A DNA stretch of 64,000 bases from Spirochaetota bacterium (GTDB lineage: Bacteria > Spirochaetota > UBA4802 > JAFGJZ01), in assembly GCA_016934935.1 (NCBI GenBank), contig JAFGRW010000093.1, positions 1 to 64,000 of the forward strand, given 5' to 3'. The translations under genes and the position numbers were made by a program. A model generated the notes under the pieces. It saw only the letters and a list, made by a program, of their open reading frames with translations, made no database searches and had not been told where the DNA came from. Of the stretch, positions 1 through 5,706 are shown piece after piece (within the stretch, counting starts at the first letter, position 1; each line of letters starts with the position of its first letter).

Positions 1-62
1 CGGAATGACACCAGTCGAGTTCAGAAATATTCAAAATAGTATTAAAATAGAAGAATAAGTGT

Positions 63-242
63 TTACAGTTTAAAGGGGGCACTCCAGTTTGAGAAATTTT
101 GAGAATAGTCTTTTTCTGAATTAATTGGCACAATCCTGACTAAGGCTCTGCCTCTGTAAGTAACAGTAATGCTTTCACCGTTAGAGGCCATATCAATTAT
201 TCTGCCCGGTTGAATTCTTAATTCTTTTGTTGTAATGGTCAT
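63..242 (-). CDS. Phd/YefM-type antitoxin (prevent-host-death family)
   Basis: A 59-residue protein that reads like the DNA-binding half of Phd/YefM antitoxins: the MTITTKELRIQPGRIID start matches the usual 'threshold' opening of the family, followed by an ITVTYRGRALVRIVP strand resembling the 'vltrnGkpvavivp' segment. These proteins bind their own promoter and neutralise a partner toxin. The frame stays open upstream to 404, but the ATG at 242 has a GGAG about 8 nt upstream and matches the family start, so I use it. No toxin start with a ribosome site is visible in the 62 bases left before the window edge, so the partner is either further left or absent. A perfect palindrome lies just upstream. 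The family call is good; whether it is a working toxin-antitoxin pair is unknown. Confidence 0.75.
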   Translation of the reverse strand: MTITTKELRIQPGRIIDMASNGESITVTYRGRALVRIVPINSEKDYSQNFSNWSAPFKL

Positions 243-251
243 TTTGTTCTC

Positions 252-277
252 CAGTATACACTTGTAAGTGTATACTG
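252..277. promoter_or_regulatory. Perfect palindromic operator upstream of the Phd-like gene
   Basis: Two 12-bp arms, CAGTATACACTT (252-263) and AAGTGTATACTG (266-277), are exact reverse complements separated by 2 bp. The site overlaps the region just before the ribosome site and start codon of the antitoxin gene. Phd/YefM proteins autoregulate by binding TGTAC/TATAC-rich palindromes, so this is the likely autoregulatory operator. The palindrome is seen; its role is inferred. Confidence 0.75.
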
Positions 278-469
278 AATTGTGATGAATTGCGATCAAA
301 TTTTTTTGAACATTGGCGATATTCTTGCCGTCGCATAAGAAATTATTATTATTCAGGCAAAAAAAATAAGGGTAGAAATTAAAGAAGCAGCATCGATACT
401 GCAAAAGTATTTCAGATCAGGCAGATAAAGATTGAATTTGGGATAAATAATTATTGATAAGGAAAAAAG

Positions 470-880
470 ATGAAAGCCAAACCGAAAACCAATGCTGAAG
501 ATTTGACGAACAGTATCGCGTACTGCGGATTAATTTGCAAACTATGTTTTCTTAAAGACTCATGCAGCGGGTGCAGGAGTGAAAGAAACTTATGTGATAA
601 AAATCTGGCAGACAAGGGTTGCTTTCAGAAGCTGTGCTGCTCAGAAAAAAATTACGAAGGTTGCTGGGATTGTGATAATCTCTATTCCTGTACAGAAGGA
701 ATTTATTCGTTAGGCGATTATTCAAAAATCAAGGCATTTGCTATTTGTATTAAAGAAGACGGCAGGGAGAGGTTTATAAACTATATTCTTGAAAATACAA
801 AAAAAGGGTGGAGCGTCGAAAAAGATAAAGATTATGATGGCAAAAAAATTGATGAGGTACTTGAAATGCTAAGAGGATAA
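470..880 (+). CDS. DUF3795 family Cys-rich protein
   Basis: A 136-residue protein with the DUF3795 opening IAYCGLICKLC (about residues 17-27) and many further cysteines in CxxC-like spacing (CSGC, CFQKLC, CWDC), suggesting metal binding. The function of the family is not established. An AAGGA-rich stretch precedes the ATG. It stands alone on this strand between the divergent antitoxin gene and a small envelope protein gene that has its own promoter. Family membership is fairly sure from the YCGL-C-x2-C pattern and Cys content; role unknown. Confidence 0.72.
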   Translation: MKAKPKTNAEDLTNSIAYCGLICKLCFLKDSCSGCRSERNLCDKNLADKGCFQKLCCSEKNYEGCWDCDNLYSCTEGIYSLGDYSKIKAFAICIKEDGRERFINYILENTKKGWSVEKDKDYDGKKIDEVLEMLRG

Positions 881-1586: not shown

Positions 1587-2468
1587 CTAATTGGCAGCGA
1601 TTTCTAAAAGTTTAACAAAAAGGGACTGCATTTCATTAATCCTGTTTTTTGTTTCTTCCAGATTAAACATTGATAAAGCAGTTTTTTCCAGAATTGTTTT
1701 TTTAAGAGTACTTTGCAGCTCTTTGTTGATGTTGGCAAAAGTTCCAAGATTAATAACAGGTATTCTTTTTTCGTTGTCAGTCAATTTAGAGTGATAATCT
1801 GAAGGGTTCAGTGCGAAGATATTGCAGTTACATATATAGGCTTCGTATAAAGATAGTCCAAAATGTGAAAGAAAGTTTTTGCTTTTAAAGAGCAAATTAT
1901 AATAGCTTGAACCACTTAGTGTTGACCCTTTGTAATAACAGTTTGAACCGTTAAAAAAAGCAATTTCCAGACTTTGATTTTCTGACAAGAGGGGATAATC
2001 GTTATTGCCAAAACCGGTGTAAATCAGAAGATCCAGATCTTTTTCAGGTGTAGAGTGTAAATCGTTAATAGCTTTACTAAAGTGGTAACCAAAAACAAAC
2101 GGAAAATTTCCATAACCTGTTTCGATAGGATGTTCGGCTCGAGGCAAAAGATCTATATTCTTGTTATAAAGAGATGTGTAACCTGCATCATCAATGGAAA
2201 TGATTCTTCTATACTTCGCAGCTAAAAGTGAAGCCGCATCTTTTGTCGAATCTCTCATATCACGGATTAGAATTTCGGCTTTGACAGGCGAGTGTGAGGT
2301 GTAAGGTCTCAGATTATCAGGAAAGTTGTCGGGATAGCAGTCACAGCTGATATAAACATTAAGACCCTGATTTCTGAGAATCGATAACAGGTTGGTCATT
2401 CGCCAGAAGTGTCCGCTGCCATAATCAGAACCGCAGCGGGTCATTATGCAGATATCAGCCGTTTTCAC
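1587..2468 (-). CDS. SpsG/PseG-like UDP-sugar hydrolase or GT-B-like glycosyltransferase
   Basis: A 293-residue protein. The N-terminal GSGHFWRMTNLL (about 18-29) matches the G-x-GH-x-x-R-x-x-x-L loop of PseG/SpsG proteins, which remove UDP from a 2,4-diacetamido sugar in nonulosonate synthesis or act on related nucleotide sugars. A later SHFGLSLYEA motif (about residue 200) corresponds to the family's 'sagGltlyEa' nucleotide-binding loop. It overlaps the spsF-like gene by 14 nt and is the last gene of the surA-like/spiro-SPASM/spsF/spsG operon. The usual partners PseB, C, H and I are not in the window, so the actual sugar is unknown. It might decorate flagellin or surface glycans, but that is inference. 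Confidence 0.68.
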   Translation of the reverse strand: MKTADICIMTRCGSDYGSGHFWRMTNLLSILRNQGLNVYISCDCYPDNFPDNLRPYTSHSPVKAEILIRDMRDSTKDAASLLAAKYRRIISIDDAGYTSLYNKNIDLLPRAEHPIETGYGNFPFVFGYHFSKAINDLHSTPEKDLDLLIYTGFGNNDYPLLSENQSLEIAFFNGSNCYYKGSTLSGSSYYNLLFKSKNFLSHFGLSLYEAYICNCNIFALNPSDYHSKLTDNEKRIPVINLGTFANINKELQSTLKKTILEKTALSMFNLEETKNRINEMQSLFVKLLEIAAN

Positions 2469-3216
2469 AGTGTGTCATTGGGCGCTGTTTTATTTCGCTA
2501 TTAATAAGAGCCATATCAGGAAAAAGCCTAAGATGATTTAATATCTGATGTAATGAAAAAATGGAATCTTCGTTGTAAAGAGCATTATAAAGTTCACATG
2601 CCAGCTCGTAATCTTCTTTAGTATCTATGGTAAGACGAAGATCGGGAATATTATTATAAATGAAGACAGGTTTGCGGCAGATATTAAAAATATGCTCATT
2701 TTCCTTAATATATGGTGTTACATGCTCAAAATGGTGAGCTTCAGAAGCGTTTTTGTAGCAATCAGCTAAAGCTTCTTTCTTTATTACTTCGACTGCTGTA
2801 CCCAACGGAATATTTGTGACAGAAGCAAGATCAGCATCGGTTTCGATAGCGTATTCAATTGCCATATTGGCATAATCTACATCTGTGAAGGGATTGTCCC
2901 CGGTTATGCGAACTATGTAATCACAATCATACAATTGAGAAGCATTATAGTATCTCTCAAGAACATTGGTTTCTGATCCAGGCAAAGCCACTGCTCCCTC
3001 AGATTCGGCAAGAGCAATAATATCTTTATTGGCGTTTGCATCACCTGTTGCAACTATAACCTGAGAAACACCTTCAATTGCCTGTGCCCGTTTAATTATA
3101 TGTGAAAGTACAGCCTTACCCATAAGTGTTTTAAAACACTTCTCATGAAGCCTTTTTGAGTTTTGACGAGCCTGTATAACTGCAATGGTATTAACTGAAT
3201 TTTCAGTTTTTTTCAT
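2455..3216 (-). CDS. SpsF-like CMP-sugar cytidylyltransferase
   Basis: A 253-residue protein of the SpsF/CMP-Kdo synthetase-like group: AVIQARQNSKRLHEKCF near the N-terminus is the 'iiQARmgStRLPgKvl' CTP-binding motif, and RITGDNPFTD is the metal-binding 'R-TgDnPl-d' motif. The C-terminal LRLTIDTKEDYEL also matches the family. Such enzymes join CMP to an acidic or amino sugar. The frame is open to 3318, but the ATG at 3216 has an AAGGA site, sits 22 bp after the spiro-SPASM stop and matches the family start. It is translationally coupled to the SpsG-like gene by overlap. The substrate is not predictable from sequence. Confidence 0.82.
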   Translation of the reverse strand: MKKTENSVNTIAVIQARQNSKRLHEKCFKTLMGKAVLSHIIKRAQAIEGVSQVIVATGDANANKDIIALAESEGAVALPGSETNVLERYYNASQLYDCDYIVRITGDNPFTDVDYANMAIEYAIETDADLASVTNIPLGTAVEVIKKEALADCYKNASEAHHFEHVTPYIKENEHIFNICRKPVFIYNNIPDLRLTIDTKEDYELACELYNALYNEDSIFSLHQILNHLRLFPDMALINSEIKQRPMTHCENG

Positions 3217-3238
3217 AATGCTTTCCTTATTGAGTTGC

Positions 3239-4720
3239 TTAAAGATTAAACGTAAACCATTCGTCACAGGATTTACAGTCGGGCCTGGTAGCATATTTTT
3301 TATTAAAATTATCCACAAACAGAGGCTTACGCTCTTCCCATATTTTTAAAATCGGCATATCTTTTGCGGATAATAAGGAAAATTCGGCACCGGGATCCTG
3401 TTTGCAGAAGGGAATAGATCCATCTGAAAGTATAAGCAGATCCCTTAAAAGATGCCAGCATGGAATTCGTTTTAGCGGTGTAAGATCATAGTAGCGGCGG
3501 TCTGTAAGGCGACCACAGTAGGTGTTCTGTTTCTGAAGTATGATTTGAACCTTATGACCTTCCCAATAGTCATAGTATGCATCAAGAAACGGCTCAGTCT
3601 CATTTATCTTCATTATTTGTACATACAGGTTTTCTTTCAAGACAGGTTCAAGATTAAGAATGTTTTTGTTAACTGTATCAAACCCGTCAAGATTATGTAT
3701 CGATTTATACGTCTCGGCAGAATATCCGTTGCATTCTACAATTACACGCAGTTTTGATACATCACGATTTTGGATAAAATTCATAAAATTCTGATCAAGA
3801 GCAAGGCCATCGGTTTCTAAAAGCAGAATCGAAATATTAGTAGTATTCAGCGCTTTTTCAAAAATAGAATAAAATTCACTGTGTTTAAGAGGTTCTCCAA
3901 AACCTGAAAGGCTTAAAGCAACGGGGGTATTAAAGAGGTCTAATTCAGTAATAATTTTATCAAAAAGCTTGCTATCCATTTGACTACGCCCTTTTTTGGC
4001 AAGAGCAACTGGTGAATATAGTGGATTTGCGTTTGTCTCAGGTGAAAGCTCTATTTCAATGTAAGAAGGTGTTGTATAAAGTATATCCGGGTTTTCAGTG
4101 AGTACTTTCTCTACAGAATCATACGAAATATTATCAGCAACGTTAATCATGTTTTGCATGATCATGTTTTCTCGTTTGTTTCCGCTTAAAAAAGAGAGTC
4201 GGTATGCCCGTATATCAGGTTCCTTGTAAAAAAGCTCTACATCAAACTGATTAATATTATCTTTAATAACTTTTTCTACAGGCAGTATTGATTTGCCGTT
4301 TTCACTTGAATCAGGAAGAGATTTTATAAGCTCGGAAGAGAGAATGTCGCAGGCAAAACCAGCTGGAATGTTTTCTGAATAGGTATATTCGGCTATATAT
4401 TTTGTATGAACATCTAGCATTTCGCCTATTATCTGCATATCGCAGAAAGGAGCATCTGCTTTTATTCTTATATAGTTATCAAAAGAAAACTGTTCGTTGA
4501 GGTTTTTCCAGTTTTCTGTTTCGTTATCGCTTCTTACATAAACTTTTGAAAATTTGACAAGTTCTCCTGTATAAGCTTCCGGTAATGAAGCAATAATTTC
4601 GGTATCTGCAAAAGCATTGTTAATTTTTTCTTTTATAATGTAAAAGGTCCTGGAACCATTAAAGTTAAGATCATCGTCATCTGTATGTTTTTCTAAGTAT
4701 AAAACAAAAGCGTTATTCAT
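3239..4720 (-). CDS. Spiro-SPASM family protein with degenerate cytidylyltransferase-like N-terminus
   Basis: A 493-residue protein that I match to the spirochaete-restricted 'spiro-SPASM' family. Residues about 1-195 follow the SpsF fold: IRIKADAPFCD (84-94) aligns with RITGDNPFTD of the neighbouring SpsF-like enzyme, and DIRAYRLSFLSGNKRE aligns with its DLRLTIDTKED. The CTP loop is not conserved. Residues about 218-400 look like a radical SAM barrel that kept LSLSGFGEPL (269-278) but has no CxxxCxxC (the equivalent stretch reads ELSPETNANPLYSP). The C-terminus keeps SPASM-type cysteines C402, C421, C439, C482 and C485. It therefore probably binds an auxiliary Fe-S cluster without radical SAM chemistry. 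It overlaps the surA-like gene by 4 nt. Function unknown. Confidence 0.78.
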   Translation of the reverse strand: MNNAFVLYLEKHTDDDDLNFNGSRTFYIIKEKINNAFADTEIIASLPEAYTGELVKFSKVYVRSDNETENWKNLNEQFSFDNYIRIKADAPFCDMQIIGEMLDVHTKYIAEYTYSENIPAGFACDILSSELIKSLPDSSENGKSILPVEKVIKDNINQFDVELFYKEPDIRAYRLSFLSGNKRENMIMQNMINVADNISYDSVEKVLTENPDILYTTPSYIEIELSPETNANPLYSPVALAKKGRSQMDSKLFDKIITELDLFNTPVALSLSGFGEPLKHSEFYSIFEKALNTTNISILLLETDGLALDQNFMNFIQNRDVSKLRVIVECNGYSAETYKSIHNLDGFDTVNKNILNLEPVLKENLYVQIMKINETEPFLDAYYDYWEGHKVQIILQKQNTYCGRLTDRRYYDLTPLKRIPCWHLLRDLLILSDGSIPFCKQDPGAEFSLLSAKDMPILKIWEERKPLFVDNFNKKYATRPDCKSCDEWFTFNL

Positions 4721-5706
4721 TTTTTATCCTGGGATGCGCTATATTTGTCGAAACCGTCAATATAAACGCTAATATGAGAATTGGCTCGTTCACCTTTAAC
4801 CCATTCTGTAAACTGGTTCATTCGGGCATCTTGCGATATCATCTGGAAAATCCTATCACGAATCTGATCGTAAGGCAAATAGCGGCGTCCATAATATTTT
4901 ACAACATGGTATCCAAAAGAAGACTTGAAAACAGAGGATATTTCCCCCCTGGATTTCATATTAAAGACATGATAGGCAAAGCGTTGATCAAGTTGTCCCG
5001 GCGAAATCCAGTCAATAAAACCATCAGCTCTGGCGGAAGCCTTGTCATCAGAATATTGTCTGGCAAGTCTGGCAAAAGATTCTCCACTCATTGCTCGTTC
5101 TCTTAATTGGGATGCTAGTTCATTTGCCTCTTTTTCGGCAGAAAACGATTTTCCTTTTGGAATAATTAATATATGCTGAAAACGGAGTTGAAGCAGTTGT
5201 TTTTTGTTTTTTTCGTACCAGGCTTTCGCCTCAGCTTCAGATGGAGGGGTAAATGTCATCGCGTAGACCATGATCAGCTCCATTGTGATCTGCTTTCTCA
5301 TTTCTTCGCGGTATACTTCAAAAGGAATTTTTTCCTCGCGCTCAATATTCTTTTTAAATTGCTCAATATCCTTTATTCCGGTATGCTCCATAACATCTTT
5401 AATACGGTTGTCAACTTTCTCGTCACTTACTATAATGTATTCACGGTTTGCTGCCTGCATTAAAAGAAGTTCATTTATATATGAATCCAGGGTAACATAG
5501 AGCATGTTTTTCCTGTCTTTAGCTGTAATACCTTTACGGTTTTTGTTTATTTCGACTCTTTTGTACAGATCGCTGTACAGTATCGGGTCATCATTTACAA
5601 GAGCTACGACTTTGTCCACGGTGTACCATTTTCGATTATCCGCTGTAATAGATGAAAAAGCCGAAATGGATATAACTAATAATAGAATAATTTTTGTAAT
5701 TTTCAT
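4717..5706 (-). CDS. SurA-like periplasmic peptidyl-prolyl isomerase
   Basis: A 329-residue exported protein: signal peptide (1 to about 22), a SurA_N-like helical chaperone region (VVALVNDDPILYSDLYKR, 33-50, onward to about 150), then one parvulin (PpiC) domain at about 174-273 with FQHIL, RQYSDDKAS, GFIDWISPGQL and SFGYHVVKYY motifs. Such proteins escort outer-membrane proteins through the periplasm. E. coli SurA has two parvulin domains and about 430 residues, so this is the one-domain form. It is the first gene of the four-gene leftward operon. GAAGAG lies 5 nt before the ATG. The class is sure, the exact name less so, as it could be called PrsA/PpiC. Confidence 0.82.
   Translation of the reverse strand: MKITKIILLLVISISAFSSITADNRKWYTVDKVVALVNDDPILYSDLYKRVEINKNRKGITAKDRKNMLYVTLDSYINELLLMQAANREYIIVSDEKVDNRIKDVMEHTGIKDIEQFKKNIEREEKIPFEVYREEMRKQITMELIMVYAMTFTPPSEAEAKAWYEKNKKQLLQLRFQHILIIPKGKSFSAEKEANELASQLRERAMSGESFARLARQYSDDKASARADGFIDWISPGQLDQRFAYHVFNMKSRGEISSVFKSSFGYHVVKYYGRRYLPYDQIRDRIFQMISQDARMNQFTEWVKGERANSHISVYIDGFDKYSASQDKK

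Follow-up and report, generated by a model that had tools for sequence, protein, structure and literature searches.

The 64,000-nucleotide stretch of spirochaete DNA analysed here (the window) encodes a protein of the spiro-SPASM family (spiroSPASM) whose middle region resembles a radical-SAM barrel without the CxxxCxxC motif, next to genes for sugar-nucleotide synthesis. This raises the question of what such a protein contributes to the pathway. The original prediction, made from the DNA letters, described a degenerate cytidylyltransferase fused to a cluster-less radical-SAM barrel with SPASM cysteines, possibly acting as a non-catalytic scaffold or sensor.

Architecture of the spiroSPASM protein

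The window protein matches NCBIfam TIGR04321 (spiro-SPASM) with 391 bits over residues 22-492, exceeding the curated cut-off of 250. The family entry carries a name for which we found no function, and a literature search for spiro-SPASM returned no paper. The AlphaFold model (mean pLDDT 96.1, pTM 0.92) and the profile comparisons agree with the predicted three-part protein of pseudo-cytidylyltransferase, cluster-less barrel and Fe-S binding end (Table 1). As predicted, CxxxCxxC is missing at the aligned position (SPETNANPLYSPV) and the GFGEPL motif is kept in the middle region. The spiroSPASM protein of another genome of the genus (62% identity) is without CxxxCxxC too, excluding a sequencing error in the motif, and intact copies of the gene in the genus and in about 300 genomes rule out a pseudogene. 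Searching the genome with the protein gave no second, cluster-bearing copy, and Rfam gave no match in the window.

Table 1. Features of the spiroSPASM locus, with positions in the window and residues of the spiroSPASM protein
Feature	Position	Residues	Strand	Basis
spiroSPASM protein, TIGR04321	3239..4720	493 aa	-	391 bits, cut-off 250; AlphaFold
N-terminal pseudo-cytidylyltransferase domain	4085..4720 (boundary approximate)	1-212	-	hhalign, 6oew, fold
Radical-SAM-type barrel	3533..4084 (boundaries approximate)	213-396	-	BtrN 4m7t profile and structural matches
Twitch-type auxiliary Fe-S domain	3239..3532	397-493	-	C421, C439, C482, C485
IRIKADAPFCD, relic of TGDNPFTD motif	4439..4471	84-94	-	hhalign, orthologue alignment
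Lost CxxxCxxC position	4013..4036	T229, P233, S236	-	three Cys invariant in 84 orthologues align here
GFGEPL, relic of SAM-binding GE motif	3887..3904	273-278	-	orthologue alignment
SurA-like periplasmic PPIase	4717..5706		-	TIGR04142 E 2.1e-33, below its cut-off; SurA_N, Rotamase
SpsF-type cytidylyltransferase	2455..3216		-	PF02348 E 5.6e-31; catalytic residues intact
GT-B fold protein, weakly PseG-like (SpsG-like)	1587..2468		-	fold matches, GxGH..RM motif

The resemblance of the N-terminal domain to SpsF is far beyond chance. Aligning the spiroSPASM profile with the SpsF family profile by hhalign gave a probability of 98.6 and an E-value of 1.1e-15 over residues 21-215, and the neighbouring SpsF protein itself matches positions 3-207 of TIGR04321 (E 2.3e-5). 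The cytidylyltransferase 6oew of Leptospira borgpetersenii was found both by searching the PDB with the spiroSPASM profile (E 2.6e-10) and by comparing the fold of the AlphaFold model (E 2.5e-9), the latter confirming the proposed relation to nucleotidyltransferases. Fold and family profile are thus shared with SpsF/KdsB-type cytidylyltransferases (PF02348) over residues ~20-219, whereas the loop QARxxSxRLxxK, which binds CTP, and the second Asp of the metal-binding pair are lacking in the window domain; the first, D89 within IRIKADAPFCD, is present in the window protein and in 111 of the 158 full-length orthologues. A direct search of the window protein gave no PF02348 match. The loop is missing from all 158 full-length orthologues, which makes the domain a pseudo-nucleotidyltransferase throughout the orthologues sampled and not in the window alone. 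P119, G121, N157, E162, D169 and R174 are conserved as well. Both peptides that had been likened to SpsF motifs lie where they were placed, IRIKADAPFCD and, at residues 169-184, DIRAYRLSFLSGNKRE; the second correspondence fails, since hhalign pairs DLRLTIDTKED of SpsF with RLSFLSGNKRE of spiroSPASM and not with the stretch beginning D169-I-R.

The nearest solved relative of the remaining two domains by sequence is BtrN (4m7t), with an E-value of 1.6e-20 for a profile match in which both stretches are taken together. By structure the AlphaFold model matches BtrN (Foldseek E 6.2e-9), SuiB, DesII and MoaA, so that the partial TIM barrel of radical-SAM enzymes is recognizable, whereas the CxxxCxxC motif of this superfamily (PF04055) is absent from the window protein and its genus. 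PF04055 gives no match in the window protein and exceeds its cut-off in two orthologues with the motif (L074, L087). A SPASM domain (PF13186) is defined by the seven-cysteine motif CX9-15GX4C-gap-CX2CX5CX3C-gap-C binding two clusters, and in BtrN, a Twitch enzyme, four cysteine ligands hold a single auxiliary cluster (PMC6231123). The C-terminal domain of the window protein has only four cysteines, of which C439, C482 and C485 align with C187, C232 and C235 of BtrN and C421 is the fourth; the protein stops eight residues after C485, and its PF13186 score of 19.6 bits is below the threshold of 21.5. The cysteine count rules out a full SPASM domain. Because there are four cysteines, three of them aligned to cluster cysteines of BtrN, the C-terminal domain is Twitch-type, the truncated form of SPASM, with one predicted auxiliary cluster; the claim that SPASM cysteines remain holds for their retention but not for their pattern. 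The window protein shares the barrel and the predicted single auxiliary cluster with BtrN, a radical-SAM dehydrogenase (4m7t, 4m7s), but BtrN has CxxxCxxC and lacks an N-terminal cytidylyltransferase domain. Going by sequence, the window protein might still hold a SAM-binding cluster by a cysteine-free route.

Loss of CxxxCxxC across spirochaetes

We collected 160 distinct orthologous sequences from more than 50 families. CxxxCxxC is kept in 84 of them (keepers) and lost in 76 (losers), among which the window protein belongs. The original prediction had named orthologues with CxxxCxxC as the finding that would speak against it, and their number rules out a cluster-less barrel as a family trait. 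What remains is a radical-SAM family that has lost the motif repeatedly in particular lineages and probably descends from a working radical-SAM enzyme. Within the order of the window organism, families f2-f7 keep the motif and its own family (f1, both genera) has lost it. With the CxxxCxxC columns left out of the tree, the motif state changes at least 19 times, 11 of these changes being forced by well-supported branches, and counting losses only gives 21. Because the exact motif is hardly likely to have arisen again, we read the changes as losses; the root and weak branches leave their exact number uncertain. Keepers and losers alternate at short tree distance within f24, f43, f48 and f56. Some losers carry partial remnants of the motif (L098, L117, L137): L117 (5299-6780) has the altered spacing CxxxCxxxxC and L137 two of the three cysteines, each possibly a recent step of decay.

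The four Twitch cysteines are intact in 157 of 160 orthologues; of the other three, two have no aligned sequence for this region and the third has CCCS. Among losers the conservation of these cysteines is 99-100%. Keepers show hardly any variation in CxxxCxxC, the GE motif and other barrel residues. Faster barrel decay in losers was rejected, since at matched Twitch identity the difference was small and inconsistent. Research on auxiliary Fe-S clusters normally treats them as helpers of the radical-SAM cluster; a family in which the main cluster site was repeatedly removed and the helper kept is a natural experiment on auxiliary clusters alone.

Gene neighbourhood and phyletic distribution

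The neighbours of spiroSPASM turned out as predicted: a SurA-like chaperone, a catalytically intact SpsF and a GT-B/PseG-like protein, all four genes being co-directional. The PPIase gene lies upstream and shares 4 bp with the beginning of spiroSPASM; the SpsF and PseG-like genes, which overlap each other, lie downstream. SpsF keeps the family-invariant catalytic residues Q15, R17, S20, R22, K26, D107 and D198, and its true start is probably the orthologue-supported ATG at 3216 rather than the TTG at 3318 inside spiroSPASM (ORF 2455-3318). The GT-B protein has no match in Pfam, NCBIfam or, by sequence, the PDB; its model (pLDDT 87) gives weak GT-B matches including PseG (3hbn/3hbm, E 2e-4 to 5e-4).

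Across the phylum SpsF lies at most 1.5 kb downstream of spiroSPASM in 86 of 110 loci and is not adjacent in the other 24; it adjoins spiroSPASM in 47 of 51 keeper loci and 39 of 59 loser loci. In the Treponema-type order spiroSPASM is followed by a ~320-residue protein, SpsF, a PseG-like/methyltransferase fusion, an ATP-grasp ligase, an amidase, often a GerMN-type protein, and FlaA. The PseG-like/methyltransferase, ATP-grasp and amidase genes lie farther downstream in many families, and FlaA in several. Many Treponema-type genomes join SpsF, the PseG-like domain and the methyltransferase in one protein of ~820-900 residues (L062:4557-7136, L179:6355-9000). The conserved ~320-residue gene between spiroSPASM and SpsF (L061:7436-8389, L179:8982-9935) looks, by eye only, like a GT2-type glycosyltransferase and has no confident Pfam, NCBIfam or PDB match. 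In family f15 (L070, L096, L097, L116, L121, L130) spiroSPASM lacks the cluster motif and has no adjoining SpsF or PseG-like gene.

Of 393 spirochaete genomes, 290 have a TIGR04321 match above the cut-off, and none of these 290 belongs to the 42 genomes that lack flagellin, the spiroSPASM, flagellin and NeuB lists having been compared by hand and unlisted negatives deduced from gaps in the genome numbering. NeuB is missing from only six genomes over the TIGR04321 cut-off, all at most 83% complete. Three flagellin-less genomes (G249, G309, G371) have strong NeuB matches yet no spiroSPASM, and family f39, comprising 36 flagellin-positive genomes of ~1 Mb that by their size appear Borrelia-like, has neither. 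The phyletic correlation draws on few independent losses (f49, f45/g96, f50, f39). In a panel of 36 genomes the Maf-type transferase PF01973 is present in 26 of 26 spiroSPASM-positive versus 0 of 10 negative genomes; the genome of the window has three copies. The original prediction did not include a link with flagella, NeuB or Maf transferases, nor the gene order found across the phylum.

Function of spiroSPASM and competing explanations

From this co-occurrence and gene order we infer a link to the flagellin glycan, and we somewhat favour spiroSPASM being an accessory protein of a spirochaete pathway that makes a nonulosonic-acid-type sugar for periplasmic flagellins. With its SAM-cleaving cluster site gone, the window copy most likely works in a non-radical way, and it could plausibly take a non-catalytic part in sugar-nucleotide synthesis. 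The N-terminal domain would dock on the working SpsF enzyme or on the CMP-sugar, and the retained Twitch cluster would stabilise or redox-gate the complex; where a lineage keeps CxxxCxxC, radical chemistry by the protein may additionally oxidise the sugar or alter it in another way. Going further, we tentatively propose, at rather less than even confidence, that radical-SAM chemistry is dispensable family-wide and was dropped 11-21 independent times, the pseudo-nucleotidyltransferase and the auxiliary Fe-S cluster carrying an essential non-radical role, for instance as a heterodimeric, redox-gated regulator of CMP-sugar synthetase in flagellin glycosylation.

The near-invariance of the barrel motifs in keepers, and the presence of the sugar and cyclitol radical-SAM enzymes BtrN, DesII, BlsE and SpeY among the closest solved relatives, would also be expected of a family that is an enzyme first, its radical step adding a lineage-specific sugar decoration and the losers making a simpler sugar while keeping the protein solely for substrate binding or channelling. 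We consider this unlikely given the alternation of keepers and losers at short tree distance and the retention of the same operon in losers, including the adjoining SpsF. That the Twitch cysteines are the only ones near-invariant in both groups, and that PMC10470005 puts forward electron transfer between radical-SAM proteins, would suit a protein in which the Twitch cluster does the work, through electron transfer or redox sensing on behalf of a partner enzyme, and the barrel serves as no more than a frame; yet the N-terminal domain is conserved as well and the conserved operon shows no partner reductase or radical enzyme, which makes this very improbable.

NeuB serves other surface glycans too. 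It also occurs in some flagellin-less genomes, and many spiroSPASM loci have no flagellar gene nearby, as would be the case if spiroSPASM served another nonulosonic-acid glycan, such as a surface polysaccharide, and its flagellar link were indirect. Against this, which we regard as improbable, stand the absence of spiroSPASM from every flagellin-less genome, even those with strong NeuB matches, and the FlaA genes downstream in several families.

We know of no spiroSPASM in the sps pathway of B. subtilis. SpsF- and SpsG-type enzymes occur together there too, the sps genes leading to legionaminic acid, but that pathway serves the spore crust and not flagella (PMC7439481). Flagellins of T. denticola are glycosylated, a modification essential to motility and to assembly of the filament (PMC9481697); L. 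biflexa FlaB1 is glycosylated too, and in Leptospira flagellin glycosylation is thought to contact the sheath (PMC13144727). For this little-known spirochaete machinery spiroSPASM, as the favoured accessory protein, is a concrete candidate. The T. denticola flagellin glycan is reportedly a pseudaminic-type sugar bearing an unusual acyl group with a methoxy, and the methyltransferase and ligase of the Treponema-type operon would suit such a glycan.
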